Below are positions 8,612-37,842 of a stretch of 42,123 nucleotides of DNA, piece after piece. A program made the translations under genes and the position numbers. Where the stretch lies: IMG/VR virus record IMGVR_UViG_3300014827_000005, positions 1 through 42,123 of that record; one strand, given 5' to 3'. A model generated the notes under the pieces. The model saw only the letters and a list, made by a program, of their open reading frames with translations, did no database searches and was not told the origin of the DNA. Position 1 is the stretch's first letter. Every line of letters begins with the position of its first letter. Source of the DNA: a virus.

Positions 8612-8656
8612 ATGAAAAAGAAAACCAAAAAGACTGTCAAAAAAGGAAAGAAATAA
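8612..8656 (+). CDS. 14-aa lysine-rich micropeptide
   Basis: ATG at 8612 after AAAGGAATAAC opens a 14-codon frame, MKKKTKKTVKKGKK, ten of whose residues are lysine. Its TAA shares a base with the ATG of the next gene (8656). Good ribosome site and overlapping stop/start suggest it is translated, either for translational coupling or as a cationic peptide in the lysis group. Function unknown. Confidence 0.5.
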   Translation: MKKKTKKTVKKGKK

Positions 8657-12016: not shown

Positions 12017-12216
12017 TAACTTAACCCGTTTTCCTCATTCAGTGCGTCAATGCGATCTTCATACTCATCTACCTGTTCTTGCAGGTCTTCTATTATCTGA
12101 TTGAGGTCATTGACAACTTCATTATGGTCTGAGTTAATATCTTCTATCTGACCACATGCCGGGCAGTTTCTACCCGAATAAGCTATGTCGTCTCCATGTT
12201 CGCCGCAAGTGTCCAT
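12016..12216 (-). CDS. Small zinc-finger coiled-coil protein
   Basis: A 66-aa acidic protein. C4 and H7, then C18-PAC21, suggest a small zinc site, followed by a coiled coil (NDLNQIIEDLQEQVDEYEDRI). Its ATG shares the base with the kinase stop. Function unknown. Confidence 0.7.
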   Translation of the reverse strand: MDTCGEHGDDIAYSGRNCPACGQIEDINSDHNEVVNDLNQIIEDLQEQVDEYEDRIDALNEENGLS

Positions 12217-13103
12217 TAGAAATCTCCTTCTGCTACTTGTAGCACTTTAAGTCCTTCTTCACGCCACATCTTCACGACACGGTCTCGGTCATCTAAGACG
12301 AAGCGTACGTTGTATCGTGGCTCGATCCATTCTTTGTAAATATCACGCTTAATGATGGCGTCGTTGATACGATTGCCTTTTTCATCCACAATGGTTTCGT
12401 CACGCATGAAAATCTCATCGTAAGGAATTTGGTTAGCCTTGAGCCATGCTTCAGTCTCGGGCTTGCAAGTACTATCCCTGCCGCTAACAATAACGATGTA
12501 GGTATCTGGAATCTCTTCCTGTATGTTACGGCCAGCATAACGCCAGACCACATCACGTACGTTCTCGTCCACAATATCTGTAGAGACCTTCGTGTAGTCG
12601 TATGGAGACCGGTCATCTATGTGTGCCAGTGTGCCATCTATGTCAACTATGATACAATGAGGGAAACCCTCTTTGAAGGGTGGTTTTACATATTGTGCGA
12701 CATGCCCTTTTTTCTTCAGGAACGTGTTGTACATCGACTTGATTACCTTTTCACCTACGGCATTTGCCCGTTCTGAGTCCCTTTTGAGGCACGTAGAGAG
12801 CGTTACGTCCGTGAAGTCCTTAATCTCGAACTGACACTGGAAACCATCAGCCATGTCTATGAGTGCAGCTTCGTGCTTAGGGTCCAAATTAGTATCATCT
12901 ACAATCACATCATGCCCACGAGCTAGGTAGTGCCGGATGATAGCGTCACGGACGCCTAGAATATCCTTCTCGTTAGACTTTGACCAAACACTATTGTCAA
13001 TCATGGCCCGGAGGTCATCTTTGTTGACACGTTTTGCTTTTTGTTCTTTCGCCCATGTGGACTTACCGCTTGCTGGTAGACCTTTTGTCATTATTAGTCG
13101 CAT
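12216..13103 (-). CDS. Polynucleotide 5'-kinase / 3'-phosphatase
   Basis: A protein close in plan and length (295 aa from the ATG at 13103) to T4 Pnkp, which heals RNA ends by phosphorylating the 5'-OH and removing the 3'-phosphate. The kinase P-loop is GLPASGKST near the N-terminus, with DVIVDDTNLD further on. The C-terminal half is a HAD phosphatase with DIDGTLA and later VSGRDS and DDRDRV. The frame extends to 13121, but the start MRLIMTKG aligns best with T4; ATG at 13091 is also possible. Located beside a nucleotidyltransferase and an RNA ligase, so it very likely prepares broken RNA for sealing. Confidence 0.93.
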   Translation of the reverse strand: MRLIMTKGLPASGKSTWAKEQKAKRVNKDDLRAMIDNSVWSKSNEKDILGVRDAIIRHYLARGHDVIVDDTNLDPKHEAALIDMADGFQCQFEIKDFTDVTLSTCLKRDSERANAVGEKVIKSMYNTFLKKKGHVAQYVKPPFKEGFPHCIIVDIDGTLAHIDDRSPYDYTKVSTDIVDENVRDVVWRYAGRNIQEEIPDTYIVIVSGRDSTCKPETEAWLKANQIPYDEIFMRDETIVDEKGNRINDAIIKRDIYKEWIEPRYNVRFVLDDRDRVVKMWREEGLKVLQVAEGDF

Positions 13104-13831
13104 AATTCGTCGTACATCCATGCTTTCTCGGCTTCAGGTGTGCCGCTCATATAGGCTCGGTAAATGAAATCTTCGATCCATTCAATATCCGGCTTCATGT
13201 TTTTATATTTACTGGTGCTCTCTGCAACGCTGACACGCATATTCATGTCAGACATCGCCGCTACAATCTCAGGGAGGTAGGGTTGGATGGCTTCGACAGA
13301 GAGAGGCTTAATTGTCTTGAGCAGAGGAAACAAATCACTATCCGCAAGGTTGCACTCAAACTTACCTGTAAGCAGGAATTGTTCGCACTGCCACATAACC
13401 CGCAGGAAAGCGACTGCAAACTTGGCTGTTCGTTCTTGTCCATTTACGCCCTTCGACTCGAAGTTGTAGAACTTGTTCCACTGGTTGTGGGCATAGCCTC
13501 GGCTTGCATCGACAAACATTTTCGTATCAACGAATTTGCTCCAGTTAGCCCGCATCTCCTCGGCCACAGGAGAGGTCTCGGTGACTTTGTCTGAGAAGAA
13601 TACTTCAAGTATTGTTGCATTTCCTTTGGTAGCGAGTTTACAAAACTCTGCAAGTTCGTAGCTGGTGTTGTCTTCATCGCCTTCTATCCATGTTGTGTTC
13701 TTTAATGTTTTGAATGGGCTGACCACGTCTTTCAGTTCGCTTACGTGGATGCCACGATAGTCCCAGTCAGACGTCGGAGTGTCGAGCCCGTGTAAACGGG
13801 ACCCGACGACAACCTTAGTCAGAATCTTCAT
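13094..13831 (-). CDS. Nucleotidyltransferase of the RNA-repair cluster
   Basis: A 245-aa protein with a polymerase-beta-type nucleotidyltransferase signature near the N-terminus: GSRLHG at 10-15, then SDWDYRG with D22 and D24 as likely metal ligands. It resembles the RlaP-type transferases found next to RNA ligases. It might add nucleotides to RNA ends before ligation, but the substrate is not known. It overlaps the kinase start by a few bases and shares the base pattern ATGA with the membrane gene upstream. Confidence 0.8.
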   Translation of the reverse strand: MKILTKVVVGSRLHGLDTPTSDWDYRGIHVSELKDVVSPFKTLKNTTWIEGDEDNTSYELAEFCKLATKGNATILEVFFSDKVTETSPVAEEMRANWSKFVDTKMFVDASRGYAHNQWNKFYNFESKGVNGQERTAKFAVAFLRVMWQCEQFLLTGKFECNLADSDLFPLLKTIKPLSVEAIQPYLPEIVAAMSDMNMRVSVAESTSKYKNMKPDIEWIEDFIYRAYMSGTPEAEKAWMYDELCD

Positions 13832-14022
13832 GAACTAACGCTTCCGAACAAGATTCCCATAATGAACGTCACGAGCACTGAAGGCCAAAAGGCAATCGCT
13901 AGTGCTGTAGCGTGGAATATGTGGGCAAGTGCCCCGAGGCAAAGCATGGTAACCCATCCGCCTATTAGGAACGCAGGAGCCAAGATAGCGGCTACGGCAA
14001 TAAGTGTTATTAAGACTTTCAT
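13828..14022 (-). CDS. Small three-span membrane protein
   Basis: A 64-aa, almost wholly hydrophobic protein (ILAPAFLIGGWVTMLCLGALAH and LVTFIMGILFG). It lies between the RNA ligase and the nucleotidyltransferase with four-base overlaps on both sides, so it is produced with them. Function unknown; it could link repair to the membrane or simply be a passenger. Confidence 0.75.
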   Translation of the reverse strand: MKVLITLIAVAAILAPAFLIGGWVTMLCLGALAHIFHATALAIAFWPSVLVTFIMGILFGSVSS

Positions 14023-15293
14023 TCTGTTGTACTTCCTTCGACTTCAAGGTCTTCAGCTTCTTCGTCAATCATGGCTGACTCGTGAGCATAGAACTTTTCG
14101 CCTTTAGCTTTTAATATGTATGGTGCAAGCATGTCCACACGGATGCAGATACCTTCGTCTACTGGACTCTCTTTATCCAGTGGTACGGCTCCGGCATAGC
14201 CTTCTTCGTGAAAACGCTTGTCGATGTATTCGGAGACGATCTCTTCCTCTGTAGGCATAGGACCGCTGTACAGCTCTGGGACGGTATTCAGACCACGGTC
14301 ATGGCAGAACTCTTTGGTCTGCTCCCATGACAGGTCAGTGACTATCCCCTGATTGTTGACAAAAGCAACCCGATACACGTACAGATCGCATGTTCGGTTT
14401 GGTACTTGGTAAGTGTAATTCTTCTGGAGCGGAGCACCCTCTTTTGTCCAGCCGACCAGTTCCCCATATACGAGGAAGTTTTCAGGTAGCGAGCCGGATA
14501 GTTTCGCACCCTCTTCGGTCCAAATGTCTGAGTTGTAGAAGTGGTTCTGGTTGGGGTTGTTAATATCCTTAATAACCTTGCGAGAGCCAAACACGTAGTC
14601 CATCTCTGTATCAGCGACCTTAACACCTGCACGTTTCGCTACCTTGTCACGCCAACTAAGTTTGCGAGCAACAACAGTATTACCGATTCGTATGGATGTA
14701 CCATGTAGCTTTTGAGTAATAGTAACCCAACGGCCGGTGGAAATAACTTCAGTATTCCGAAAGTAATTGTCTGTGTCATAGTGCTCGGGGAGGAATTTTT
14801 TATCGACTCGGACGAACTTTTCTTTGTTTTTTTCAATTCGTTGTTCCCTTCGTGTACGTGGAAGTACGTACTTTTTACATATTTCGCTGTCACCAATCTT
14901 GTCGAAGGTGTCTCCAACCTTGAACTGGGTGATGTCTAAGTTCTTAATATAGGACAGGCTCTCTAAGGGCATAAATAAGGCATCTGAGCGGTGTCCACGG
15001 AACTTCATGGCCCGGACCCGTCGGTTATCTTCTAAGTAGCCCTTGGAACCTTCATTGTCGTTAAGGTTGCCGTGGCGGTGCAGGTTGTTCTTACGGGCAT
15101 ACTCTTCGCTTAGTTGAGTCTCAGCCGTGAAAACAATTCCCAAGTCACCCTGTTCCGTGTCTTTACCAACGATAGCCTGAAATCCAAGCAGTGGTGTACC
15201 CACCACGTTATCACAGCCCGCAAGGTCAGTAAGCGACTTGATCTCCACAACTTGCGCTGCATAATTACTGTTTTCTGGCTCGAGTAGTTTCAT
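14019..15293 (-). CDS. RNA ligase (Rnl5/DraRnl-like)
   Basis: A 424-aa nucleotidyltransferase-fold ligase. Motif I, QKLHGTS, puts the AMP-accepting lysine at 195; NFLVYGELVGW is the motif III region; DEGICIRVD and KAKGEKF near the C-terminus are motifs IV and V. About 190 residues precede motif I, which suits the Deinococcus-type ligases with an N-terminal OB domain rather than T4 Rnl1 or Rnl2. It would join 5'-phosphate and 3'-OH RNA ends made by the kinase/phosphatase. The C-terminus ends acidic (DEEAEDLEVEGSTTE). Confidence 0.9.
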   Translation of the reverse strand: MKLLEPENSNYAAQVVEIKSLTDLAGCDNVVGTPLLGFQAIVGKDTEQGDLGIVFTAETQLSEEYARKNNLHRHGNLNDNEGSKGYLEDNRRVRAMKFRGHRSDALFMPLESLSYIKNLDITQFKVGDTFDKIGDSEICKKYVLPRTRREQRIEKNKEKFVRVDKKFLPEHYDTDNYFRNTEVISTGRWVTITQKLHGTSIRIGNTVVARKLSWRDKVAKRAGVKVADTEMDYVFGSRKVIKDINNPNQNHFYNSDIWTEEGAKLSGSLPENFLVYGELVGWTKEGAPLQKNYTYQVPNRTCDLYVYRVAFVNNQGIVTDLSWEQTKEFCHDRGLNTVPELYSGPMPTEEEIVSEYIDKRFHEEGYAGAVPLDKESPVDEGICIRVDMLAPYILKAKGEKFYAHESAMIDEEAEDLEVEGSTTE

Positions 15294-15986: not shown

Positions 15987-16595
15987 CTACCACCATCGGT
16001 GGACCTGCCAAAAGGCGGCGGCGGCAGACCATGATCCATAGCGTTGTATGGCGTAGTTGTCGAAGTAAGCATCCTGACAAGCGTAGTCTGCGAGGCCACA
16101 CCCCATCTTGCTACAGGGAAGTGCTTGGCCGAGGCCACATGCTCCTGAACCTGCGTTGATAGCGCCCGGGTTGTTACCTGACTCATGATCGTATATATAT
16201 GCCTTAGCTGCGTCTGTGGGTAGGCTGTAGGTAGGTGCTGGTGCTGCGTACGCTACTGCTGTTGCCTTAGACGCTGCCTTGGCCTGTAACTGGTCCTGAG
16301 TATCCTTAAGCTGCTGATTGAGCTTGTTGATCTCATCCTGCTTCGCCTTCTCATCCTGAACGGACTGAGCTTGCGTTTTTTGTAGGTTGTTGCGTGTCTT
16401 AGTTAGTTGTTGTTGTGTGCTCTCTAGTTGAAGTCTCTGTTTTACCTCTAGTGTATGCGGTTGGAGGAAGTGAACGTAGGTCACTGTGGCTACCAACACG
16501 ATAGCGAGAGCTAGGGCAATCTTTTTCAAGACTTTTGGGTTTTTGTGTTTCACAAGACGCTTCTTCCGAAGCTTTTGTTCCTTTTTAACCCTCAT
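15987..16595 (-). CDS. Membrane-anchored lytic transglycosylase
   Basis: A 202-aa protein with a very basic N-terminus (KKEQKLRKKRLVKHKNPK), one membrane span (about 24-43), a long coiled coil to about 108, then a lysozyme-like domain. Key features are the catalytic Glu in YIYDHESGNNP, GSGACGLGQALPCSKM, and GSWSAAAAFWQVHRWW at the end. It would cleave peptidoglycan outside the membrane. Located in the early arm, it may act in entry, wall loosening or superinfection effects rather than lysis. GTG at 16553 is an alternative start. Confidence 0.85.
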   Translation of the reverse strand: MRVKKEQKLRKKRLVKHKNPKVLKKIALALAIVLVATVTYVHFLQPHTLEVKQRLQLESTQQQLTKTRNNLQKTQAQSVQDEKAKQDEINKLNQQLKDTQDQLQAKAASKATAVAYAAPAPTYSLPTDAAKAYIYDHESGNNPGAINAGSGACGLGQALPCSKMGCGLADYACQDAYFDNYAIQRYGSWSAAAAFWQVHRWW

Positions 16596-27360: not shown

Positions 27361-27435
27361 TGCGGGATAGAGCAGTGGCAGCTCGTCGGCCTCATAAGCC
27401 GAAGGTCGTGGGTTCGAGTCCCACTCCCGCTACCA
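27361..27435 (+). tRNA. tRNA-Met (CAT), initiator-like
   Basis: Cloverleaf: acceptor TGCGGGA/TCCCGCT with an unpaired T1-T72, D arm GAGC/GCTC, anticodon stem TCGGC/GCCGA with loop CTCATAA, T arm GTGGG/CCCAC, then ACCA. The D-stem to anticodon region (GCTCGTCGGnCTCATAA) closely follows bacterial initiator tRNA, and the lack of a 1-72 pair is the hallmark of initiators. CCA is encoded. Confidence 0.85.
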
Positions 27436-27439
27436 AGCA

Positions 27440-27468
27440 TTGACAAAACATAAGAAGTATGCTAGTAT
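27440..27468 (+). promoter_or_regulatory. Sigma70-type promoter of small RNA D
   Basis: TTGACA (27440-27445), 17-base spacer ending TGC, TAGTAT (27463-27468), four bases after the initiator-like tRNA. Confidence 0.75.
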
Positions 27469-27474
27469 TAGAGC

Positions 27475-27632
27475 AAAGGTTCTTTAATGACCACGTGTTC
27501 TTCCCTAGAAAAGTAAACAGGTCCTTGTAAACTATCATGACAAACTATCAACTCAATCAGCCGGATACTAACTCCACCCAGTAGGGCCTGATTATAATTT
27601 GTCAACTGTAAGCCCCTACACGGGGCTTTTTT
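27475..27632 (+). ncRNA. Candidate small RNA D (about 155 nt)
   Basis: Bounded by the promoter at 27440 and the terminator at 27611-27632. Only tiny frames occur: nine codons at 27488 and fifteen codons at 27538 (MTNYQLNQPDTNSTQ), neither with a good ribosome site. It splits the initiator-like tRNA from the other seven tRNAs. Function unknown. Confidence 0.55.
27611..27632 (+). terminator. Intrinsic terminator of small RNA D
   Basis: AGCCCC (27611-27616), loop TACAC, GGGGCT (27622-27627), then six T. The tRNA-Pro begins six bases later, so the downstream tRNAs need readthrough or a promoter not recognised here. Confidence 0.88.
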
Positions 27633-27637
27633 ATTAT

Positions 27638-27711
27638 CTTAGTGTAGTGTAACGGTAACACGGGGGTCTTGGATACCTCAATCGGAAGTTCAACTCTTCT
27701 CACTTTGACCA
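27638..27711 (+). tRNA. tRNA-Pro (TGG)
   Basis: D arm GTGT/ACAC, anticodon stem GGGGT/ACCTC with loop CTTGGAT (anticodon TGG), T arm GGAAG/CTTCT, CCA encoded. The acceptor CTTAGTG/CACTTTG has two T-T mismatches, so folding is imperfect. Confidence 0.7.
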
Positions 27712-27785
27712 TAAGTTGTAGAATCAGGCGATAGGACCAAACTGTAAATTTGGGACCGACGGTTCGAGTCCGTCCTACTTCACCA
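27712..27785 (+). tRNA. tRNA-Tyr (GTA), short variable arm
   Basis: Anticodon stem CCAAA/TTTGG with loop CTGTAAA, T arm GACGG/CCGTC, CCA encoded. It follows the previous tRNA with no spacer. The variable region is about four bases, whereas bacterial tRNA-Tyr normally has a long arm. The D arm (GAATCAGGCGATAGGA) pairs poorly and the acceptor TAAGTTG/CTACTTC has mismatches. Confidence 0.7.
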
Positions 27786-27862
27786 GCCGATGTGACGTAA
27801 TTGGTAAACGTACGGAGCTTAGACCTCCGGTTCTGTCAGTTCGAGTCTGACCATCGGTACCA
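27786..27862 (+). tRNA. tRNA-Leu (TAG anticodon), short variable arm
   Basis: Acceptor GCCGATG/CATCGGT, D arm ACGT/ACGT, anticodon stem CGGAG/CTCCG with loop CTTAGAC, T arm GTCAG/CTGAC, CCA encoded; abuts the tRNA-Tyr. The anticodon TAG reads the CTA leucine codon. The variable region is only about five bases, against ten or more for usual bacterial tRNA-Leu. Charging identity is therefore uncertain. Confidence 0.75.
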
Positions 27863-27936
27863 CCCGGCAAAGTGTTAGGGCAGCACGTCTCCTTGTCAGG
27901 GAGAGGGCACGAGTTCAACTCTCGTTGTCGGGGCCA
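27863..27936 (+). tRNA. tRNA-Asp (GTC)
   Basis: Acceptor CCCGGCA/TGTCGGG, D arm GTGT/GCAC, anticodon stem TCTCC/GGAGA with loop TTGTCAG, T arm ACGAG/CTCGT, CCA encoded. Directly abuts the tRNA-Leu. Confidence 0.85.
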
Positions 27937-27939
27937 TTA

Positions 27940-28014
27940 CCCTAGGCAGCTCATCGGTAGAGCAAGACCCTGTTAAGGTCGAGGCGGTAGGTTCGATTCC
28001 TACCCTAGGGGCCA
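27940..28014 (+). tRNA. tRNA-Asn (GTT)
   Basis: Acceptor CCCTAGG/CCTAGGG, D arm GCTC/GAGC, anticodon loop CTGTTAA (GTT), T arm GTAGG/CCTAC, CCA encoded. The anticodon stem has one terminal A-G mismatch. Confidence 0.88.
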
Positions 28015-28019
28015 GATAT

Positions 28020-28095
28020 GTTGGAGGTCGTCCAATGGTTAGGACGTCAGCCTGTGACGCTGAAGATGCGAGTTCGATCCTCGTCTTCCACCCCA
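28020..28095 (+). tRNA. tRNA-His (GTG)
   Basis: D arm GTCC/GGAC, anticodon stem TCAGC/GCTGA with loop CTGTGAC (GTG), T arm CGAG/CTCG, CCA encoded. A G precedes position 1 and faces C73, as needed for histidine identity. One acceptor mismatch (T1-C72). Confidence 0.85.
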
Positions 28096-28098
28096 AGT

Positions 28099-28174
28099 AT
28101 GGGAGTAGACAAATGGTAAAGTCGCCGGGCTTTGAACCCGGAGCGTGTAGGTTCAAGCCCTACCTCCCATGCCA
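28099..28174 (+). tRNA. tRNA-Gln (TTG)
   Basis: Acceptor ATGGGAG/CTCCCAT, D arm GAC/GTC, anticodon stem CCGGG/CCCGG with loop CTTTGAA (TTG), T arm GTAGG/CCTAC, CCA encoded. Confidence 0.88.
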
Positions 28175-28492: not shown

Positions 28493-28540
28493 ATGAAAAA
28501 GATGTTAGATGCCACTACTGCTCCCGAATCCACACGCTAA
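28493..28540 (+). CDS. 15-aa leader peptide overlapping terL
   Basis: ATG 28493 in the sequence ACAAAATG, the spacing used by other starts here, opens MKKMLDATTAPESTR and stops at 28540, inside terL in another frame. It may couple or regulate terL translation, or it may be the true N-terminus of terL if a frameshift occurs. Confidence 0.4.
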   Translation: MKKMLDATTAPESTR

Positions 28541-29855
28541 ACAAGCCGCCTTCCTCGGCGACCCACACCGTTACAAGGTCCTTAACTGGGGCCGACGTAC
28601 TGGTAAATCTGTAGCCGTCTGGGAGAAGGTCGTCCTCGAGGGGATGCTCCGGCAGGGCACATACTACATCATCGCTCCAACTTACAAGCAAGCCAAGTCT
28701 ATTTACTGGCGTGACATCTGTAAGCGTTACAAAGGCGAGTTCATGACTTTTAATGAACAGGAACTCTCCATCACCTTCGATATTCTAACTGATGGTGAGA
28801 TTATGACTCAGGCCGGTCCAATCAAGATTAACCACGATCCCGACCTGCCACCAACCCGCATCGAACTTAAGGGTGCTGATAACCCTGATACCCTCCGTGG
28901 TACTGGTATCTCCGGTGCCGTCATGGATGAGTACGCCTTCATGAACGACGGTAAGTATCTGTATGACACTATTATCCGCCCTGCCCTATCTGACAAGAAT
29001 GGTTGGGCTATTTTTATCTCTACCCCAAATGGTGTTTATAATCACTTTTACGACCTTTGTCAAACTGCTCAGTCTGATCCTGAGATGTACTACTTCTCTC
29101 ACGCTACCGCCCTTGACAACTCCTACTTCCCGCAGCAAGAGTTCCAAGATACCCGCCGAGAGTACGAAAAAGAAGGCAAGCTCGACCAATTTAATCAGGA
29201 GTGGATGGCTGAGTTTTCTAACCCTACACAGCTTATTTATGGTGAATTTGACAGAAATGTCCATGTATTGCCAAGTAAAGATTTTGATGACCAACTCCCA
29301 GTACAGGGAACATATAATGCTTCTATCGACTTTGGTATGACTGACCCGACAGCCGCAGGTTTCGTGAAGATTGACTACGAGGGTAATTGGTGGGTCTACG
29401 ATGAGATTTACCAGCCTGATTTACACCTTGACCAGCTCGTCTATGTCCTTCGTGACAAGATGGGTGATGACCACTTTAGCCGCATATTAGGAGATGGGGC
29501 CGCTCGTTTTGAGCTTGAATCGCTTCGTGCCCGTAGATTCCGTATTACCGCTGCCAAGAAGGGTGCCGACTCCATTTTCAATGGTATTAAAGAAGTCAAA
29601 GCTCTACTTGCAATCCGCCAAGACACTGGCAAACCAAAGATATTCATTCGTGCTTCCTGTAAGAACCTAATTAAAGAGTTTGAATCATACTCGTGGATTA
29701 GAGACCAATTCGGGGAGATCACAAATGTTGCAGAAGATAAAAATAACCACGCAATGGACTGGGTCCGGTATCTAGCAATGGACCGTGCAACCCCAGTTAA
29801 ACGTGAAAAAAGGAAAAGAGAGTATGACCCAGTCACCGGACGGCCCCTCAACTGA
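28509..29855 (+). CDS. terL: Terminase large subunit
   Basis: A 448-aa packaging motor. Walker A is NWGRRTGKS (about residues 25-33); GAVMDEYAFM near 135 is Walker B with its Glu. The C-terminal RNase H-like nuclease has SIDFGMTDPT near 270, ILGDGAAR near 325 and NHAMDWVRY near 415. It pumps DNA into the capsid and cuts concatemers. The chosen ATG (28509) has only a weak ribosome site. The last codons overlap the next gene by 32 bases. Confidence 0.93.
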   Translation: MPLLLPNPHAKQAAFLGDPHRYKVLNWGRRTGKSVAVWEKVVLEGMLRQGTYYIIAPTYKQAKSIYWRDICKRYKGEFMTFNEQELSITFDILTDGEIMTQAGPIKINHDPDLPPTRIELKGADNPDTLRGTGISGAVMDEYAFMNDGKYLYDTIIRPALSDKNGWAIFISTPNGVYNHFYDLCQTAQSDPEMYYFSHATALDNSYFPQQEFQDTRREYEKEGKLDQFNQEWMAEFSNPTQLIYGEFDRNVHVLPSKDFDDQLPVQGTYNASIDFGMTDPTAAGFVKIDYEGNWWVYDEIYQPDLHLDQLVYVLRDKMGDDHFSRILGDGAARFELESLRARRFRITAAKKGADSIFNGIKEVKALLAIRQDTGKPKIFIRASCKNLIKEFESYSWIRDQFGEITNVAEDKNNHAMDWVRYLAMDRATPVKREKRKREYDPVTGRPLN

Positions 29856-30111
29856 GCTCGAGCCGTACAAAACTAGTGATACACCATATGCAGCGTTCCT
29901 GCACTATAGTGGACACAAAATTGTGGGTTCCAAACAGGACCCCAACGACTACAAACGGGAAGTTCTTATCTTCATTTTTACCGACGAAATCCTAGACCTT
30001 GAACAGGAATGGCGTGTCGGTAAGGCAATCGGAGACCTGAAAAGGTACCACCGCTCGCTGAAGATAGTCAACCGTGTCGTAAATGAAAATCGTAAAAAAA
30101 GGGACAACTAA
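29824..30111 (+). CDS. DUF5659-like small protein
   Basis: A 95-aa protein from ATG 29824, preferred over 29785 because of GGAAAAGAGAGT spacing and a smaller overlap. The pattern YKTSDTPYAAFLHYSGHKIVG followed by beta strand and helix matches my memory of DUF5659 (TSDxxxAAFLxxxGHKL). Its function is unknown. Stop TAA overlaps the next ATG. Confidence 0.7.
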   Translation: MTQSPDGPSTELEPYKTSDTPYAAFLHYSGHKIVGSKQDPNDYKREVLIFIFTDEILDLEQEWRVGKAIGDLKRYHRSLKIVNRVVNENRKKRDN

Positions 30112-30200
30112 TGAGCATATTCGGAGACATCTTAGGACTACCGTTTGAAATTATAGAAGACGTCGCTGGCGACATCAAAGATGTATTGGAGGAGCTATAA
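30111..30200 (+). CDS. 29-aa small acidic peptide
   Basis: Overlapping starts and stops (TAATG at both ends) place a 29-codon gene here: MSIFGDILGLPFEIIEDVAG at the start and KDVLEEL at the end. Amphipathic. It couples translation of the DUF5659-like gene and the glycosyltransferase. GGAGG near its end serves the next gene. Confidence 0.6.
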   Translation: MSIFGDILGLPFEIIEDVAGDIKDVLEEL

Positions 30201-31879
30201 TGCCAACAATTTCACTCCAGATGATAGTGAAGGACGAGTTCGATCAAGTCGCACTGCTCGTTCAAAATGCCGTAGATTACTTCGATGAAGTGAATTTAAC
30301 CGTTTCAGATAAATCAACCGCTGACAAACTGGCTAAGATTGCCAAAGCAGTCCCTCGTGTTCATGTGAAACACCGTGCATGGAACAATCGCTTTGATGAT
30401 GCCCGTAACGACAACTTCATGATGTGTACCTCGGACTACGCCTTCTGGCTTGACTCCGATGATACCTTTGATTTCACTACCATACCGGAAATCCTTGACC
30501 TTGCAGTACGTAACCACATCGACGCCCTGTTCCTACCATACAACTACGCTCAAGACGAAGACGGCAACTGCATCACTAAACAGTATCGAGAGCGCTTACT
30601 CCGCATGGCCTCAGGTTTCACGTGGAAAGGATGGGTTCACGAGACCCCAATCTGGCCTTCTACCAACTATGTCAGCCATATCCTCGATAGCCCTGAAGTT
30701 ACGCACAATATGACCGAAGGACACACCGAAAGCTCCGTTGCCCGCAACCACGCTATCCTCGAAGAAGCTTACAAAGTCGATGATGACCCCCGAATTATCC
30801 ACTATTACGGTATGTCACTGTTCACTAAAGGTGAATATGCTAAGTCAATCAGCGTCTTACACGACTATTTACAGGTTGGTGGCTCTCAAGAGGACATTTA
30901 CCGTGCTCTGTCGCTAATTAGTGAATCTGCCTACCATCTCGACAAGTTTGACCTTGCACTCGAGTTCGCAACTAAGGCTGCAACCCTCAAACCTGCCTAT
31001 CCTATGGCTTTCTGGCTCCTTGCTCAGTATGAAGCCGATCAGGGAAACTGGCCCGAAGCACTTGAGTGGGTAAAAGTCTCTATGACCAAGGAAGACCCCA
31101 AAACTCTGTCCGTATGGGACCCCAGCGCCCGTGAACGTGCTATCTTAATCGGTGCTCAAGCTGAATTTATGCAACAGCACTACAACACTGCTCTTCAGTG
31201 GCTCCGTAAAATACCTCGAAATGCTGATGCTATCGAACTTATGGATGGTTTCATCGAAGAAGCCGACGCTGAGACATTCGTCAAGCTATTACCTAAGATT
31301 CGCAAGTTTTTCTACAATGATAACTACTTATGGGAAGCTCTCTGCCGTGATATGCAGTACGATACCCGGCTCCAGTCACTCCGTTTCGCTACTCACAAGC
31401 CTAAAAAGTGGGCTGATGACTCTATTGTCATCTTCTGCGGTGAAGGTTATGAAGAGTGGGGACCTCAGACGATGGATAAGGGCATGGGTGGTTCCGAAGA
31501 GGCAGTTATCTACCTCTCACGTGAGCTTTCCAAGCTTGGCTACGACGTCACCGTCTTCGGTGAAGTGCCACACCCAACTGCTGATGTGACCCTTGAACCA
31601 AAGGAATACAACGTCAAGTACCGTCCTTGGAAGGAAATCGACAACCGTGACGAGTTTAACATCTTCGTCGCATGGCGAGCACCACAATACCTCGAACTTG
31701 TCAAGGCAAAGGTCAAACTAGCCGACATTCACGACATCATCCCCGAACAGGTCGTCAAAGACATCGAAGGTGCTACTTACATGTTTAAGAGCGACTACCA
31801 CCGTGACCTATACAAGCCTGTTGACTCACGAGTCGTCGGCAACGGTATCGCAAAGGTACAGTTCGATGACAAAGCTTGA
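30200..31879 (+). CDS. GT2-TPR-GT4(N-half) glycosyltransferase
   Basis: A 559-aa multidomain protein. Residues 1-190 are a GT2 transferase (MIVKDE at start, FWLDSDDTFD as the DxD metal site, WKGWVHE). About 195-370 are TPR-like helical repeats (YGMSLFTKGEYAKSISVL, ALEFATKAATLKPAYPMAFWLLAQYE). About 395-559 form the N-terminal Rossmann half of a GT4 enzyme (GMGGSEEAVIYLSRELSKLGYDVTVFGE). It ends VVGNGIAKVQFDDKA, right at the usual linker between the GT4 halves. The matching C-half is encoded at 33674-34243, beyond groEL. It probably modifies virion proteins or other phage products with sugars. Confidence 0.85.
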   Translation: MPTISLQMIVKDEFDQVALLVQNAVDYFDEVNLTVSDKSTADKLAKIAKAVPRVHVKHRAWNNRFDDARNDNFMMCTSDYAFWLDSDDTFDFTTIPEILDLAVRNHIDALFLPYNYAQDEDGNCITKQYRERLLRMASGFTWKGWVHETPIWPSTNYVSHILDSPEVTHNMTEGHTESSVARNHAILEEAYKVDDDPRIIHYYGMSLFTKGEYAKSISVLHDYLQVGGSQEDIYRALSLISESAYHLDKFDLALEFATKAATLKPAYPMAFWLLAQYEADQGNWPEALEWVKVSMTKEDPKTLSVWDPSARERAILIGAQAEFMQQHYNTALQWLRKIPRNADAIELMDGFIEEADAETFVKLLPKIRKFFYNDNYLWEALCRDMQYDTRLQSLRFATHKPKKWADDSIVIFCGEGYEEWGPQTMDKGMGGSEEAVIYLSRELSKLGYDVTVFGEVPHPTADVTLEPKEYNVKYRPWKEIDNRDEFNIFVAWRAPQYLELVKAKVKLADIHDIIPEQVVKDIEGATYMFKSDYHRDLYKPVDSRVVGNGIAKVQFDDKA

Positions 31880-32009
31880 AATGTATGTCAAGCGCCTCCA
31901 GACCGTCCAGAACATGACGGAGGACCTCGCTGCTAAGGAATTAGCCGAGATACTCATGGACATCTTAGAAGATATGAATAAAAACGAAATGGGATTCAAA
32001 GCAAAATGA
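31866..32009 (+). CDS. 47-aa helical protein
   Basis: ATG 31866 lies 14 bases before the glycosyltransferase stop. The product (MTKLEMYVKRLQTVQNMTED...LMDILEDMNKN) is a short helical, acidic protein. Its TGA overlaps the next ATG (ATGA). No family recognised. Confidence 0.65.
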   Translation: MTKLEMYVKRLQTVQNMTEDLAAKELAEILMDILEDMNKNEMGFKAK

Positions 32010-32128
32010 CACCGACAAAAATCATCCAGATAGCCCCATCTACCAGTTTAGTCTACGGACTAGGCGATGATGGCCTACTGTACTACTGGAACACAAACAT
32101 TAACGACTGGACACTTGTAAAAGCATGA
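32006..32128 (+). CDS. 40-aa beta-type small protein
   Basis: ATG 32006, within ATGA, to TGA 32128, whose ATGA contains the groEL start. The product MTPTKIIQIAPSTSLVYGLG... continues with LLYYWNTNINDWTLVKA. It resembles small phage proteins with a YGLGDDGxLYxW core, possibly a WD-like strand. Its place next to groEL may be chance or coupling. Confidence 0.7.
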   Translation: MTPTKIIQIAPSTSLVYGLGDDGLLYYWNTNINDWTLVKA

Positions 32129-33693
32129 AAAAGCAGATCATAACTGGCGATGAAGCCAAGAAACAACTCCTAGAAGGTGCCAAGCTGCTCTATGACGCAG
32201 TTTCTAGCACTCTCGGTCCTAAGGGCCAAAACGCTGTTATTGAAGCCTATGGCGAACCAATCGTGACGCACGATGGCGTAACAGTCGCTAAATCTATTGA
32301 AAACGTCAAGGATTGCTCTCCCGGTGCCCGTGTTGGTATCGAGATGATTAAATCGTCCTCGAGCAAGACTAACGACAACGTAGGTGATGGTACGACTAGT
32401 TCTACCATCCTCGCCTATCACCTGATGGATGGCGGTATGACCCGTATCCAAGCCGGTAAGAACGCTATGATGCTCCGCAGGGAGCTAGACACTGCCGCTG
32501 AAGCAGTCCTCAAGGCTGTAGACAAGCTCAGTACCAAGATCAAGACCGAAAAAGAGACCGTTGAAATCGCAACTATCTCTAGTGAGAACCATGACATCGG
32601 CAAAGAAGTCGGCCACATGTACCACGTACTTGGCAAAGACGGCATGGTTGTTGTTGAAATCGGCCAGAAACCCGTTATTGAGTACGAAATTGTAGAGGGT
32701 TATACCTTCGACCAAGGTCTCCTTAACCCATTACTAGTGACTGATCCACGGACCCAAACCAGTGCTGTGAAGCATCCTGTAGTCCTCGTATGCCACCAGA
32801 CTGTCGGCCTAATCGACGTGTTCCAACTCTGCCAAGACCTCTATAACGCAGGTCGTGACGGCATTGTAATCATCTGTGATGACTTCAAGAATGACCTTCT
32901 CGACTGGGCAGTCCAGCGTCAGGGTGAGTTCGACGTCATCGGTGTCAAGTCACCGGGCTTTGGTGAACAGCGCATGGAACGCCTCAAAGACCTCGCTGCC
33001 TTCGTCGGCACCGAAGCCGTAGGTAACAAGTTCCCTAAGAAAATCTCTGACCTAAAGGCTACTGACCTCGGCACTTGTGAAGAAATCGTCGTCAGCCTGT
33101 CTGAGACCGTCATCACTGGCGGGGGAGACGTCGCTGATTACGTTAGCGAATTACAGGCAAAACTGAAGGTAACTAAGGGTGAGTTCGACCGTAACAAGAT
33201 TGAGAAGCGTATCGCTCAGATGAAAGCCCAAGTCGGTCAAATCCGTGTCGGTGGTAACACTGAAATGGAAGCCGAAGAACGCAAGTATCTTGTGGATGAT
33301 GCTGTAGCCGCCACAGAAGCCGCTCTAAAGGACGGAATCGTCCCGGGTGGTGGAATGACCTACCTTCGCCTTGCAAACGAGCTACAGAGCTCTACAGACG
33401 GTGCAGCGCTGCTTAAAGAAGCACTCGAAGCACCATTCAAAGTCCTGATGACTAATGCTGGCCTTCGTTATGGCAAACAACTACAAGCACTCGAAGGGCT
33501 TGAGTACGGCACTGGTTACGATATTATGGGCGATCCTGAAACCCCTGTGAACCTAAAAGAACATGGGATCATTGACCCCGTCATGGTGATTAAGCAGACC
33601 ATCACCAATGCTGTATCTGTGGCTGGGTCTGCCTTAACTACGGGCGTACTAATTACTAGAGAAGAGGAAAAAGATGACAAAGAAGAGGATTAA
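32125..33693 (+). CDS. groEL: GroEL-type (group I) chaperonin
   Basis: A 522-aa chaperonin covering the full group I length. LGPKGQN (30-36), D50 in THDGVTVAK, and GDGTT (87-91, D88) are the ATP-site residues. VDDAVAATEAALKDGIVPGGG near 395 includes the catalytic Asp of the intermediate domain. The apical domain includes EGYTFDQGLL and FGEQRMERLKDLA. The C-terminus is EEEKDDKEED instead of the flexible GGM repeats. It would fold phage proteins (capsid or the cassette enzymes) in ATP-driven cycles. No groES is found, so it may use the host cochaperonin or work without one, as shown for some large-phage chaperonins. Confidence 0.96.
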   Translation: MKKQIITGDEAKKQLLEGAKLLYDAVSSTLGPKGQNAVIEAYGEPIVTHDGVTVAKSIENVKDCSPGARVGIEMIKSSSSKTNDNVGDGTTSSTILAYHLMDGGMTRIQAGKNAMMLRRELDTAAEAVLKAVDKLSTKIKTEKETVEIATISSENHDIGKEVGHMYHVLGKDGMVVVEIGQKPVIEYEIVEGYTFDQGLLNPLLVTDPRTQTSAVKHPVVLVCHQTVGLIDVFQLCQDLYNAGRDGIVIICDDFKNDLLDWAVQRQGEFDVIGVKSPGFGEQRMERLKDLAAFVGTEAVGNKFPKKISDLKATDLGTCEEIVVSLSETVITGGGDVADYVSELQAKLKVTKGEFDRNKIEKRIAQMKAQVGQIRVGGNTEMEAEERKYLVDDAVAATEAALKDGIVPGGGMTYLRLANELQSSTDGAALLKEALEAPFKVLMTNAGLRYGKQLQALEGLEYGTGYDIMGDPETPVNLKEHGIIDPVMVIKQTITNAVSVAGSALTTGVLITREEEKDDKEED

Positions 33694-34243
33694 CAGTGTT
33701 GGATACTTTTCAGCATACTACCGTGGACTTGAATGTCTGCTTAACATGTGGCCGGAGATTAGGCGGGGTGTTCCAAACGCCACGCTCGACGTCTATTACG
33801 GGTGGGAGTCTTGGGTTGGCCTCGAAGGTGAGGATGACTTTTACCACCGGATGTGTGCCAAATTCGAGGAGCTCAAATCTGAGGGTGTCACCGTTCACGG
33901 ACGTGTCTCGCACGAAGAACTTGCTAAGGCCATGAAAGAAATTCAGGTCTGGGCCTACCCGACTGAGTTCCAAGAAATCCACTGTATTACAGCCCTGAAA
34001 GCCCAAGAAGCTGGCTGCTACCCTGTTGTAACCGCTGTAGGTGCCCTGAAAGAGACCGTCCAATGTGGCGATAAGATCAGGACCCAGAAGATTTACACTG
34101 ACCAGTACAAGCAGGAGAAGTTCGCAGCCGCAGTCATCTCCGCATTAAAGGAAAAGAAAACCGGCACACCAGTACCAAACGTAGACTGGGCAGATGTCGC
34201 AAAACAATGGGACGCAGTAATCAAGGAGAAACAAAGTGTCTGA
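33674..34243 (+). CDS. GT4 glycosyltransferase, C-terminal half
   Basis: A 189-aa protein made only of the C-terminal Rossmann domain of a GT4 enzyme. INSVGYFSAYYRGLECLLNMWPEIRR begins it, VTVHGRVSHEELAKAMKEIQVWAYPTEFQEIHCITALKAQEAG holds the conserved donor-binding region with its Glu pair. It lacks the N-terminal acceptor domain, which is present at the end of the 30200-31879 protein. Overlaps groEL by 20 bases. A paired enzyme is likely. Confidence 0.88.
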   Translation: MTKKRINSVGYFSAYYRGLECLLNMWPEIRRGVPNATLDVYYGWESWVGLEGEDDFYHRMCAKFEELKSEGVTVHGRVSHEELAKAMKEIQVWAYPTEFQEIHCITALKAQEAGCYPVVTAVGALKETVQCGDKIRTQKIYTDQYKQEKFAAAVISALKEKKTGTPVPNVDWADVAKQWDAVIKEKQSV

Positions 34244-34475
34244 ACGCACCGCTAAACGGCTCCGTCGTGAAAACGCCGGACAACCCGAGAAACCAAAACA
34301 ATACTTTAAGCCCTTCACTATTCCACTTCCTACTGGGGAAATCAAAGATGGTGAAAAAGTCATGGTAGACACCTATATCCCACGCACTCAGAAGCGTAAG
34401 GCTATGCGGGCTATGATGGCTGACATTCGGAAAGGACGTCTCTATGGTAGGCAACAACAAAGAAAAGGACTTTAG
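34236..34475 (+). CDS. Small basic protein (79 aa)
   Basis: Starts with GTG at 34236 (AAGGAG upstream), overlapping the previous stop by eight bases. Strongly basic (MSERTAKRLRRENAGQPEKPKQ, RTQKRKAMRAMMADIRKGR). Probably binds nucleic acid or sits with the cassette. No family recognised. Confidence 0.65.
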   Translation: MSERTAKRLRRENAGQPEKPKQYFKPFTIPLPTGEIKDGEKVMVDTYIPRTQKRKAMRAMMADIRKGRLYGRQQQRKGL

Positions 34476-35130
34476 TCTTGAAAACTATGAAGGATTTTAT
34501 GAACATCACTTTTTTGAACCGATTAACGAGAAACACGCCTTCGACATCCACGAGTTTATCCCTCGCTTCGGATGGGCCTTTGACCAAGTTGAAGAGCTTG
34601 CGCCTAAGACTCTACTGGACCTTGGTTGCTTGGATGGTTCATTTGGACTTACTGTGGCAAAGCATCTTAACGTCAATGTTACTGGCGTCGATCTCACCGT
34701 TGACGGAGTGGAAATTGCAACAGAGAGGGCAGATCGTAACAACCTCCCTGCCAAATTCTACCAAGGCACCATTGAAGACTTCCTCGTCCAGCTCGCCAAA
34801 GAAGGCAAGAAGTTCGACATCGTCACCCTCTTTGAAGTCATCGAGCACGTCAAAGACGTCAAGCAAGTCCTCAAGCTAATTGACGGTGTACTAGCCCCCG
34901 GAGGCTCTGTCCTTGTCTCAACGCCCGACTTTGAAGGTCCAACCTATGGTCTGGATGACGAGCAGAACAAGTGCCACATCCGCCTTTACACCATAGCTGA
35001 CGAAGACTATTCACGTGAAAACAAGTACGGGCATGTAAGAAAAGCAACATCTATGTCTAAAGAGGTGGGCAAAGACCGTATTCAAGAGATGGTCATCCAC
35101 AATCAGCTCATCAACGTCCGGTACGAATAG
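34444..35130 (+). CDS. SAM-dependent methyltransferase
   Basis: A 228-aa class I methyltransferase. LLDLGCLDGSFGLTVAK near 55 is motif I; GVDLTVDGVEIA, FDIVTLFEVIEHV and LAPGGSVLVSTP follow in UbiE/Methyltransf_11 order. As it ends the glycosyltransferase cassette, it may methylate the added sugar. Overlaps the previous gene by 32 bases in a different frame. Confidence 0.88.
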   Translation: MVGNNKEKDFSLENYEGFYEHHFFEPINEKHAFDIHEFIPRFGWAFDQVEELAPKTLLDLGCLDGSFGLTVAKHLNVNVTGVDLTVDGVEIATERADRNNLPAKFYQGTIEDFLVQLAKEGKKFDIVTLFEVIEHVKDVKQVLKLIDGVLAPGGSVLVSTPDFEGPTYGLDDEQNKCHIRLYTIADEDYSRENKYGHVRKATSMSKEVGKDRIQEMVIHNQLINVRYE

Positions 35131-35223: not shown

Positions 35224-37239
35224 ATGGCTAAGAAAAAAGAAGACAAGTCCACTACTGGTACAGTGTGGCAGGAACGCTTCGAGAATCGCAAGATCAAGCA
35301 ACGTCAAATGTTTGAAGATGCCAAGAAGTACTACGACATCATGTATGCCACGCAGGATACACAGAAAATATCACCGTGGAAATCTAAAGTATACGTTCCT
35401 ATTCTCGCCAGCAAAGCTTGGGACCTCATTGCCCGCATGTCTGACGTTGTACCACTCTTTGATGTCGTCATCAAGAACGAACTAGAACTCGGTGAAGACG
35501 GCAACTTCCAGAAGAGCCAAGGCGTCGAAGAGCGTGAACAACGCATCGAAGCTAAACTCCAATATGACTACCAGTGCGGCCACGAAGAGCCTATGAAACT
35601 GAAGGTATTTGACCCATTAGTGGATGCAGTCGTAGCCGGTACAGGCTATGCTTATGCTCCGTGGATGTTCGAGGAAAAGAAAGCCTATGGCCGTCAATTT
35701 GACGAAATGGGTACGATGGACAACGAAAACACTGTCACCAAGACACAGTCTACCGGACACAATGGTTTCGAGCCTGTCAACTTCTTCAACGTCTTCCCAG
35801 CCGATGGCCCTAGCTTCTTCAAGATTCCTTACCTAATCGTCCGTGGCTACAAGCCTAAAGTCGAGATGGAACTAGCTGGCCTGTACGAAAACCTCGACAA
35901 ATGTGACACCGGCCCTCGTGAACCCGTAGATGAGTTTACTCTCTACAACCAGTCCCGTGACCGTGTTCTGAACGAACTCGACATGGTCTCTATGGATGAC
36001 ACCGTTGAGATGATTACCTACTACGAGTGTTACGAAAAGACTGCTGATGGCATCAGCCTCACTACCTATGCTGAAGGTCTCGCTGACGAAGCTATTGACA
36101 GCCCTGACGATGCCCCTTGGGTAGCAATCCGACCTAAGAGTGTCCCTTACTGGCACAATATGTACCCAGTCGTACCATTCTACTGCCGTCGTAAGAGCTT
36201 CTCGCCATTCGGTGAGTCTCTGTTTGAGAACAACCGTACCCTCCAATCTGCTACTAACGACCTCTTCAACCACTACCTAGACAACTGGAACCTATCCATT
36301 GAGTCTATGCTGATGTACGAAGACGGCACCCTGACTAATGACTTCATCATTGAGCCGGGAGGTGAAATTACATTTACTGGTGAGCCACCTAAGCAGTTTA
36401 AGTTCCCAGAACCAAACCCAACCCAGCTATCGCTCGTCATGAACGTACTCGAAAAGGGTATCGACAACGCTACCTTTAGCCCTTACGCAGCTGGTAACCC
36501 ATCTGACGGCAACGACAAGACCCAAGGCACCGCATATGGTGTTAAGTCTATCACCGAAGCCGCTACGACTAAGATCGGTTTCTTCCGTGACAACTTCAAG
36601 CAGTCCATGAAAATCATCGGCCGCATCTGGCTATCGAACCTACAGCAATTCTCTGATGACCCTGCTGAAATCCAGCGTACTCAGAATGGCAAATCTATCC
36701 CTGACGTAGTCCTACCTAGCGATTACCAAGGTGAGCTCGAACTAGACATTGACGACGACTCGATGACCCCGCTTTCTAAGCAGGATAAGCTCGACGCCAA
36801 CGACCGCTTTGTCAACACTATGCTGATGCTCCAAAAGGCATCTATGGCCCAAGCCCAAGCCTTCGCATCACCATCTGACATTACTCGGTTCAACTTCCAT
36901 GAGATGGCAGAAGACACCGCAGAGCTAATGGGTAAGAAGGACTTCAATCATTACCTGATGGACAGTTCTACCCCGCCACCACAGCCACAAGGCCAACAAC
37001 GTGATCCTAAAGAGCTACTTAACTTTAGCTACAAGGATGCCCCAGCCGACATCCAAGCACAAATAGAAGCACTGTACGGCTTCCAGCCGTCTTCATTACA
37101 CGGCCAAGCAACTACTACGGCCGCAATGCAGCACGGAGTAACTCAGTCCCAGATACATAACGGAGACCCCACAGGGGCAAAATTAAATGGCACTAACCAA
37201 CAAACAAATCCAGCAACGGGTGGACTGGCGCAAAGCTAA
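35224..37239 (+). CDS. Portal protein
   Basis: A 671-aa protein, the size and helical/acidic style of podoviral portals. MAKKKEDKSTTG start, YVPILASKAWDLIARMSDV early, PFYCRRKSFSPFGESLFENNRTLQSATNDLFNHYLDNW in the middle, SITEAATTKIGFFRDNFKQSM later, then a Gln-rich tail. It forms the dodecameric ring at the packaging vertex. Good AAAGGA ribosome site. The last 53 bases overlap endonuclease VII. Confidence 0.9.
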   Translation: MAKKKEDKSTTGTVWQERFENRKIKQRQMFEDAKKYYDIMYATQDTQKISPWKSKVYVPILASKAWDLIARMSDVVPLFDVVIKNELELGEDGNFQKSQGVEEREQRIEAKLQYDYQCGHEEPMKLKVFDPLVDAVVAGTGYAYAPWMFEEKKAYGRQFDEMGTMDNENTVTKTQSTGHNGFEPVNFFNVFPADGPSFFKIPYLIVRGYKPKVEMELAGLYENLDKCDTGPREPVDEFTLYNQSRDRVLNELDMVSMDDTVEMITYYECYEKTADGISLTTYAEGLADEAIDSPDDAPWVAIRPKSVPYWHNMYPVVPFYCRRKSFSPFGESLFENNRTLQSATNDLFNHYLDNWNLSIESMLMYEDGTLTNDFIIEPGGEITFTGEPPKQFKFPEPNPTQLSLVMNVLEKGIDNATFSPYAAGNPSDGNDKTQGTAYGVKSITEAATTKIGFFRDNFKQSMKIIGRIWLSNLQQFSDDPAEIQRTQNGKSIPDVVLPSDYQGELELDIDDDSMTPLSKQDKLDANDRFVNTMLMLQKASMAQAQAFASPSDITRFNFHEMAEDTAELMGKKDFNHYLMDSSTPPPQPQGQQRDPKELLNFSYKDAPADIQAQIEALYGFQPSSLHGQATTTAAMQHGVTQSQIHNGDPTGAKLNGTNQQTNPATGGLAQS

Positions 37240-37516
37240 TCCCGAGAAAGCTAGGCTTATAGGCTGGAGATATGAACTCAAAAGTCTCTACGGTATCACT
37301 GTGGAGCAATATGAAGCAATGCTTGAACTCCAAAATGGCGTTTGCGCTATATGTGGAGGTATCAATACACGTAAATTAAAGCTCGCTGTAGATCACGACC
37401 ACGATACCGGTAAAGTCCGTGGCCTACTATGTGACAGATGTAACCGTGGCATAGGTCTACTAAGAGACTCGAATAACATTACTAATGCACTCAAATACTT
37501 GGAGGAAAACAAATGA
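37187..37516 (+). CDS. Endonuclease VII-like HNH nuclease
   Basis: A 109-aa protein with CAICGG and CDRCNRG flanking LAVDHDHDTGKVRGLL, the His-Me core of the T4 endonuclease VII family (gp49), which resolves branched DNA before packaging. Placement within the portal/scaffold region is odd and suggests a mobile or packaging-linked role. Starts in a different frame inside the end of portal. Confidence 0.92.
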   Translation: MALTNKQIQQRVDWRKANPEKARLIGWRYELKSLYGITVEQYEAMLELQNGVCAICGGINTRKLKLAVDHDHDTGKVRGLLCDRCNRGIGLLRDSNNITNALKYLEENK

Positions 37517-37842
37517 ACGAAGACAATAACCAACTGTCGCCGGACCTAACGCAGGAGGAGCGCCAACGCCTCCGTCTGGAGCTACAGCTTAACGAAGCTG
37601 CCACGGCGGAGAGGTTCTTTGAATCCGCTACTGGTAAACTATGGACCGAGATAGCAACCTTTGAGATTACTCAAATTACTCGGGACATTACCTCAGAGAA
37701 ATACCGCAAGGACCCGACGGGCTATAACAACGCCCTGTCGGACCTCCTCGCCTACAAACGTATCCTCCGCAAAATGCAAGTAGCCGCTTCCCCCGAGCGG
37801 GCAGCTAAGATTCGAGAGAAATTAGATGAACCCTCAGAATAA
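37513..37842 (+). CDS. Hypothetical 109-aa protein
   Basis: A 109-aa helical, acidic protein (SPDLTQEERQRLRLELQLNEAATAERFFES). ATG overlaps the stop of endonuclease VII by four bases. No family recognised; may be a small structural accessory. Confidence 0.75.
   Translation: MNEDNNQLSPDLTQEERQRLRLELQLNEAATAERFFESATGKLWTEIATFEITQITRDITSEKYRKDPTGYNNALSDLLAYKRILRKMQVAASPERAAKIREKLDEPSE

Follow-up and report, generated by a model that had tools for sequence, protein, structure and literature searches.

A phage glycosyltransferase divided around a GroEL gene, in a candidate virion-decoration cassette of a probable Saccharibacteria phage

The 42,123-nucleotide virus record IMGVR_UViG_3300014827_000005 (the window, meaning the whole stretch of DNA analysed here) carries between its large terminase (terL) and portal genes a run of genes on one strand (30200-35130, +) in which a family 4 glycosyltransferase (GT4) is encoded in two parts separated by a complete GroEL gene (32125-33693). 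Our preferred reading, to which we assign a probability of roughly 55%, is that this is a late-expressed cassette most likely decorating a virion protein, with a two-subunit GT4 produced by gene fission in the loop between its two Rossmann domains. An earlier note, made from the letters of the window alone, had described a GT2-TPR protein, a split GT4 and an S-adenosylmethionine (SAM) methyltransferase as co-directional and coupled between terL and portal. The open reading frames (ORFs), the Pfam matches and the few bases by which neighbouring genes overlap agree with that description; its genes were named correctly, but the GroEL between the GT4 halves, about a third of the interval, was missed.

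The split is likewise real, as relatives carry the same protein in one ORF. A profile search with the GT4 C-terminal domain found 39 loci in viral contigs (L numbers below), which with the window and two phage records, and after removal of duplicates of one contig, gave 41 distinct contigs. A single intact GT2-TPR-GT4 ORF is present in 18 of these. In another 10 the gene is split and GroEL lies in the gap, in 9 split cases the gap has other cargo but no GroEL, and four show other states, with a broken frame (L039), an insert (L044) or a methyltransferase fused inside (L047 and L049). Every GroEL with more than 60% identity to that of the window sits in a GT4 gap (9 of 25 GroEL loci, among them L004, which repeats part of the window sequence at 100% identity, and in addition MW202497), and the GroELs of the remaining 16 loci share less than 33% identity with it. 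The frames of 559, 522, 189 and 228 amino acids are not chance ORFs, because homologues stand in identical order in MW202497 and eight more viral contigs. Megablast against the phage collection found no near DNA relatives of the window and a scan of genome contigs no integrated ones; matches in 195 Saccharibacteria-class genomes were marginal (GT4 C-domain in 4, major capsid protein (MCP) in 1). The cassette and its flanks are laid out as follows.

28509-29855 (+): terL, large terminase subunit, 5′ flank (Pfam Terminase_6N / Terminase_3C; PHROG terminase)
29785-30111 (+): ORF of 108 amino acids, weakly DUF5659-like (E 0.0033, below the Pfam cut-off), a conserved neighbour 5′ of the cassette, syntenic in relatives
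30200-31879 (+): GT2 (GT-A) domain, TPR and N-terminal Rossmann domain of a GT4 (GT-B), 559 amino acids (Pfam GT2 1.5e-12, TPR, and Glyco_transf_4 9.9e-4, a weak match to the N-domain)
31866-32009 (+): smA, small ORF of about 47 amino acids overlapping the stop of the GT4 N-half; its family occurs in GroEL-split genomes only (window, L012, L019, L022)
32006-32128 (+): smB, small ORF of 40 amino acids, motif YGL..DGLLYYWN...W; present in the window, L009, L010, L011 and L019, with a weak relative in L034
32125-33693 (+): GroEL-type chaperonin, 522 amino acids (Pfam Cpn60_TCP1 4.5e-44; PHROG GroEL 2.2e-107)
33674-34243 (+): GT4 C-terminal (donor-binding) domain, 189 amino acids, own cistron, its start overlapping the 3′ end of groEL (PF13692 2.7e-11; Pfam Glyco_trans_1_4 / Glycos_transf_1)
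34236-34475 (+): smC, small ORF of 79 amino acids, homologues in L002, L005 and L011, no PHROG match
34444-35130 (+): class I SAM methyltransferase, 228 amino acids (Pfam Methyltransf_31 4.6e-19)
35224-37239 (+): portal, SU10-like, 3′ flank (Pfam SU10_portal 3.3e-13)

We mapped the break on an AlphaFold model of the intact L013 enzyme (753 amino acids; predicted local distance difference test (pLDDT) 92.7, predicted template modelling score (pTM) 0.72), which shows GT-A, helical-repeat and GT-B parts. In both split clades of the enzyme tree, N-halves end at L013 positions 564-569 and C-halves begin at 567-571 (21 of 23 halves; the L009 N-half and L012 C-half were misplaced through end gaps and left uncounted), which puts the break in the loop joining helix 561-564 to strand 574-577, between the two Rossmann domains. 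The C-half of the window, modelled alone, is predicted to form a complete Rossmann domain and a C-terminal helix (pLDDT 86.8), and it scores 44.3 bits with PF13692 against a cut-off of 27; helix residues W172, V175, A176 and W179 do not vary across 18 rows from split and intact enzymes. The GT4 module of the L013 model matches MshA (Z 28.3, root-mean-square deviation 2.8, 311 residues), and PimA, BshA, TarM, WaaG and HepE are also among its fold matches, with GT4 enzymes at Z 23-28. At the position of the E-x7-E motif, which is common but not universal in GT4 enzymes, E101 is invariant and the second place is taken by an invariant K109 (18 rows, including intact enzymes).

The C-half has its own start in all 10 GroEL-split genomes (8 ATG and 2 GTG, set by a script rule in four of them), and in nine this start falls inside the 3′ end of groEL. 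A Shine–Dalgarno duplex of -5.6 to -8.2 kcal/mol precedes it in 10 of 10 (-6.0 kcal/mol in the window), against a baseline of 15.9% at -5 or stronger among 700 ATGs in the window. Nonsynonymous differences per site were rarer than synonymous ones (pN < pS) in 22 of 22 gene comparisons from nine genome pairs, and the corresponding substitution rate ratio (dN/dS) was 0.03-0.14 in 14 comparisons, dS being saturated in the other 8; by these measures both GT4 halves are under purifying selection.

A precise break with both halves conserved might also be expected if the halves were rejoined into one polypeptide by an intron, trans-splicing, an intein or a programmed frameshift. We hold this to be very improbable: the window contains no intron family at Rfam gathering thresholds, the C-half is equipped with a start and a ribosome-binding signal of its own, and cargo varies between clades. 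In L020, moreover, groEL alone occupies the gap, and since its start is overlapped by the end of the GT4 N-half, an intron would have no room there; on this and the Rfam result we rejected an intron or intein. Decay of the GT4 to a pseudogene, with groEL as a moron interrupting it, is just as improbable. A gene does stand inserted where relatives have a single ORF, but both halves are conserved across a 10-member clade, pN < pS throughout disfavours decay, and helix and donor-site residues are retained. We infer instead a maintained two-subunit enzyme, neither pseudogene nor interrupted by a known intron, in which the GT4 N-domain, at the C-terminal end of the GT2-TPR protein, and the separate 189-residue C-domain would re-join across the normal GT-B interface.

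The history of the split was followed in an enzyme tree of 35 of the 41 contigs, leaving out L039, L044, L047, L049 and the near-duplicates L007 and L027. All 10 GroEL-split enzymes fall into a single clade (support 100/98) nested among intact enzymes, with both its sister and its next relatives intact (98/94 at the node joining the sister). A separate seven-member split clade (100/100) has ORFs of 50-58 amino acids in its gap and, in two members, also a DNA methylase; no homology was found between smB and the 50-residue ORF of that clade. The minimum number of state changes on the tree is three, and a topology forcing the two split clades together was rejected by the approximately unbiased test (p-AU 1.6e-9, for groups chosen after the tree was seen). 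As the two split clades do not join into one, the tree calls for either recurrent fission or one fission followed by re-fusions. In the sequence of events that we propose, fission at the interdomain loop would have come first, the gap in this clade then being filled by groEL and small ORFs.

Across relatives the gap holds groEL, DNA methylase-like, peptidase-like or tiny ORFs, and L034 and L045 are additional split cases with different cargo. In L002 a small ORF before groEL (37299-37589, -) has an HExxH-like sequence, LLHEILHAIN, and matches phrog_1233, of unknown function; a small ORF in L005, ending at 8637 directly before groEL, has LIHEVIHALN. DNA methylase-like genes lie between the GT4 halves of L030 (2031-3287, Pfam N6_N4_Mtase) and L037 (2980-4236), and in or near the cassette of L032 (9250-10533). 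Beside the cassette of the window, an EndoVII-type HNH gene (37187-37516) overlaps the end of the portal gene; as its relative in L019 lies at another place, the gene may be mobile. One could go further and take the loop, repeatedly split, as a landing place for cargo, with an obligate two-subunit GT4 and a GroEL dedicated to the products of the cassette. We regard this extended proposal as doubtful, and the nine split relatives without GroEL in the gap speak against its dedicated-chaperonin clause.

The GroEL of the window matches Cpn60 over its full length, as a group I chaperonin. In a tree of 49 rows picked from 89 extracted, the 10 phage GroELs form a single clade on a long stem (1.96), whose sister group (100/95) is made up of 14 GroELs from the class to which a named Candidatus Saccharibacteria metagenome-assembled genome belongs; Actinobacteria lie on the far side, together with the other Patescibacteria except one. 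The best GroEL score was 386 bits in the 195 Saccharibacteria-class genomes, 169 of which gave a match, compared with 331 bits for the best genome outside that sample among 116 Patescibacteria (104 matching) and 318 bits among 100 Actinomycetota (96 matching). A Saccharibacteria-related origin of the phage GroEL appears likely on this basis. A Gly-Met-rich C-terminal tail is usual for GroEL without defining it; the phage proteins have an acidic tail in place of the GGM tail in 10 of 10, and Saccharibacteria tails were mostly Met-rich among the 14 of 27 inspected.

No GroES (PF00166) was found in the window or in MW202497, and among 27 records only the L013 and L014 contigs had one above the cut-off; a GroES partner could come from the host. 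In these two intact relatives the GroES-like gene lies directly 3′ of the GT4 (in L013 at 6516-6779, on a contig without a matched GroEL). We consider that the window GroEL would most likely assist the folding of late phage proteins in general and not be part of the enzyme.

Whereas the earlier note had drawn an analogy with actinobacteriophages, the GroEL tree suggests Saccharibacteria instead. Because of this tree and the matches to a lysin-like domain of the window, which fell on 11 genome contigs (5 of Candidatus Saccharibacteria and 1 of Patescibacteria, with 2 from unnamed bacteria and 3 from actinobacteria), Saccharibacteria are probably a likelier host than actinobacteria. The protein at 15987-16595 (-) is common to Saccharibacteria and some actinobacteria; by eye its C-terminal domain looks like a lytic transglycosylase, with no relevant Pfam match. 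The genome also carries eight tRNA genes, with tRNA genes at 27361-28174 (+), and an RNA-repair set (12216-15293, -) of a PNKP-like kinase/phosphatase, an RlaP-type nucleotidyltransferase and an RNA ligase, which possibly counters a tRNA-cutting defence of the host.

As to function, the GT2 domain scores 48.2 bits against a Pfam cut-off of 23.3, and W83, D85, D87 and D88 of its acidic DxD-type motif are invariant in 11 rows. A profile built from the GT2-TPR-GT4 family has SunS (7e-20, 7msp) and GmaR (5.7e-16, 22ao) as its best glycosyltransferase matches in the PDB, and Foldseek ranks 1-4 for the GT2 fold of a relative are SunS/ThuS. Among solved structures the GT2-TPR half is thus nearest to protein or peptide glycosyltransferases, relatives that suggest a protein acceptor. 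Of the 41 loci, 33 have a terL, portal or MCP gene close to the cassette, never on the opposite strand, the order being terL-GT-portal or MCP-GT; the queries used found no head or packaging gene in the other eight. A methyltransferase is matched in 20 of the 41. In L047 (5376-8606) and L049 (5394-8606), whose contigs are 198 and 153 kb long, it is fused into single ORFs of about 1,070 amino acids, with GT2-TPR before it and GT4 behind it, and L032 and L034 have extra glycosyltransferases and methyltransferases at the same place.

The glycosyltransferase relatives, the proximity to head genes, the methyltransferase fusions and the extra enzymes together lead us to propose that a virion protein is modified in three steps. 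The SunS/GmaR-like GT2-TPR enzyme would place the first sugar on the protein while its TPR holds the acceptor, the GT4 would attach a second sugar and the methyltransferase would cap the glycan. The virion decoration put forward in the earlier note gains inferential backing from the kinship to SunS, ThuS and GmaR, the nearby head genes and the fused enzymes, with host-surface acceptors still in contention; its suggestion that the virion would be masked from immune factors finds no support in this analysis.

The enzymes could instead modify a polymer or protein of the host surface, masking a receptor against superinfection or altering epibiont adhesion, a reading that we rate as possible but rather unlikely. 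The fold relatives of the GT4 include the cell-wall and surface-glycan enzymes PimA, TarM, WaaG and HepE, and the relatives of the methyltransferase by sequence in the PDB include, besides UbiG-type enzymes, WbdD, an enzyme with an O-antigen role. Patescibacteriota phages carry O-antigen sugar genes, according to a groundwater study (PMC12911398). Against a host-surface target, the cassette keeps to the head module in two gene orders, the GT2-TPR half is closest to protein or peptide glycosyltransferases, and no integrase or repressor was seen among the window ORFs scanned, a scan that covered part of the ORFs. Modification of nucleic acid, as in hypermodified phage DNA, is a more distant prospect still. 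Phage glycosyltransferases of this type exist, as in the arabinosylation reported for RB69 (PMC6024577), and a DNA methylase lies in the gap of L030 and L037; but the GT2 half has a TPR and protein-glycosyltransferase relatives, and those window ORFs that were scanned showed no base-hydroxylating or pyrimidine-modifying gene.

Several observations weigh against the decoration of a virion protein by a two-subunit GT4 in a Saccharibacteria phage. Closeness to head genes may reflect late expression alone, and the portal lies directly 3′ of the window cassette, without the fibre-like genes found there in L008 and L027. With Lys for the second Glu of E-x7-E, the GT4 donor site is, by its sequence, atypical in the window and in its intact kin. 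A single origin of the split with later re-fusion is still compatible with the tree. As to the host, the three actinobacterial lysin-domain matches of 11 are at similar identity, and a weak tRNA probe reached E <= 0.01 in 26 of 99 Saccharibacteria-class and 16 of 100 actinobacterial genomes (best 57 versus 46 bits, in sets that differ in genome size).

Phage glycosyltransferases, phage GroELs and bipartite GT-B enzymes are each known singly. In the openly licensed literature we found neither a split GT4 nested around a chaperonin nor this arrangement under phage GroEL with a split glycosyltransferase, Saccharibacteria-phage GroEL or tail-tube virion glycosylation, and the term GroEL is absent from the main text of the Patescibacteria phage papers examined. 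Intact, split and split-with-cargo relatives offer a natural series for how an enzyme survives division in two, the GroEL tree yields a probable group of Saccharibacteria phages, and, for phages of Saccharibacteria epibionts, the cassette is a concrete candidate virion-glycosylation system.

Like the S-glycosyltransferases SunS and ThuS and the flagellin glycosyltransferase GmaR, the window protein has a GT2 GT-A domain, with a helical part behind it as in SunS and ThuS; unlike them, it carries a fused GT4 N-domain and lies within a phage head module. The intact relative shares the complete GT-B fold of MshA, PimA, BshA and TarM, whereas the GT4 of the window is cut at the interdomain loop into two cistrons and has Lys at the second Glu. 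The phage chaperonins EL gp146, OBP gp246 and AR9 gp228 are described as working without a co-chaperonin (PMC7185714, PMC9598537); the window GroEL is of the same type and likewise without GroES, but those proteins come from giant phages and the present type from genomes of about 42 kb, where it is Saccharibacteria-related and lies inside a glycosyltransferase. Glycosyltransferases encoded by mycobacteriophages have been proposed to glycosylate the capsid protein (PMC11256854). The idea of virion glycosylation is shared, although the host of the window phage is probably not an actinobacterium. Closest in organization are Alg13/Alg14 and EpsE/EpsF, whose GT-B N- and C-domains likewise lie on two polypeptides, with fused versions elsewhere (PMC8993221). 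These are MurG-like (GT28-type) enzymes with lipid-linked acceptors; no nested gene is described in the text consulted, and their N-half has no GT2-TPR fusion. Pfam gives the C-half of the window only group 1 (GT4-type) glycosyltransferase models, which sets it outside the MurG-like GT28 enzymes, and the two-part GT4 would therefore be Alg13/14-like in its working without being Alg13/14 itself.

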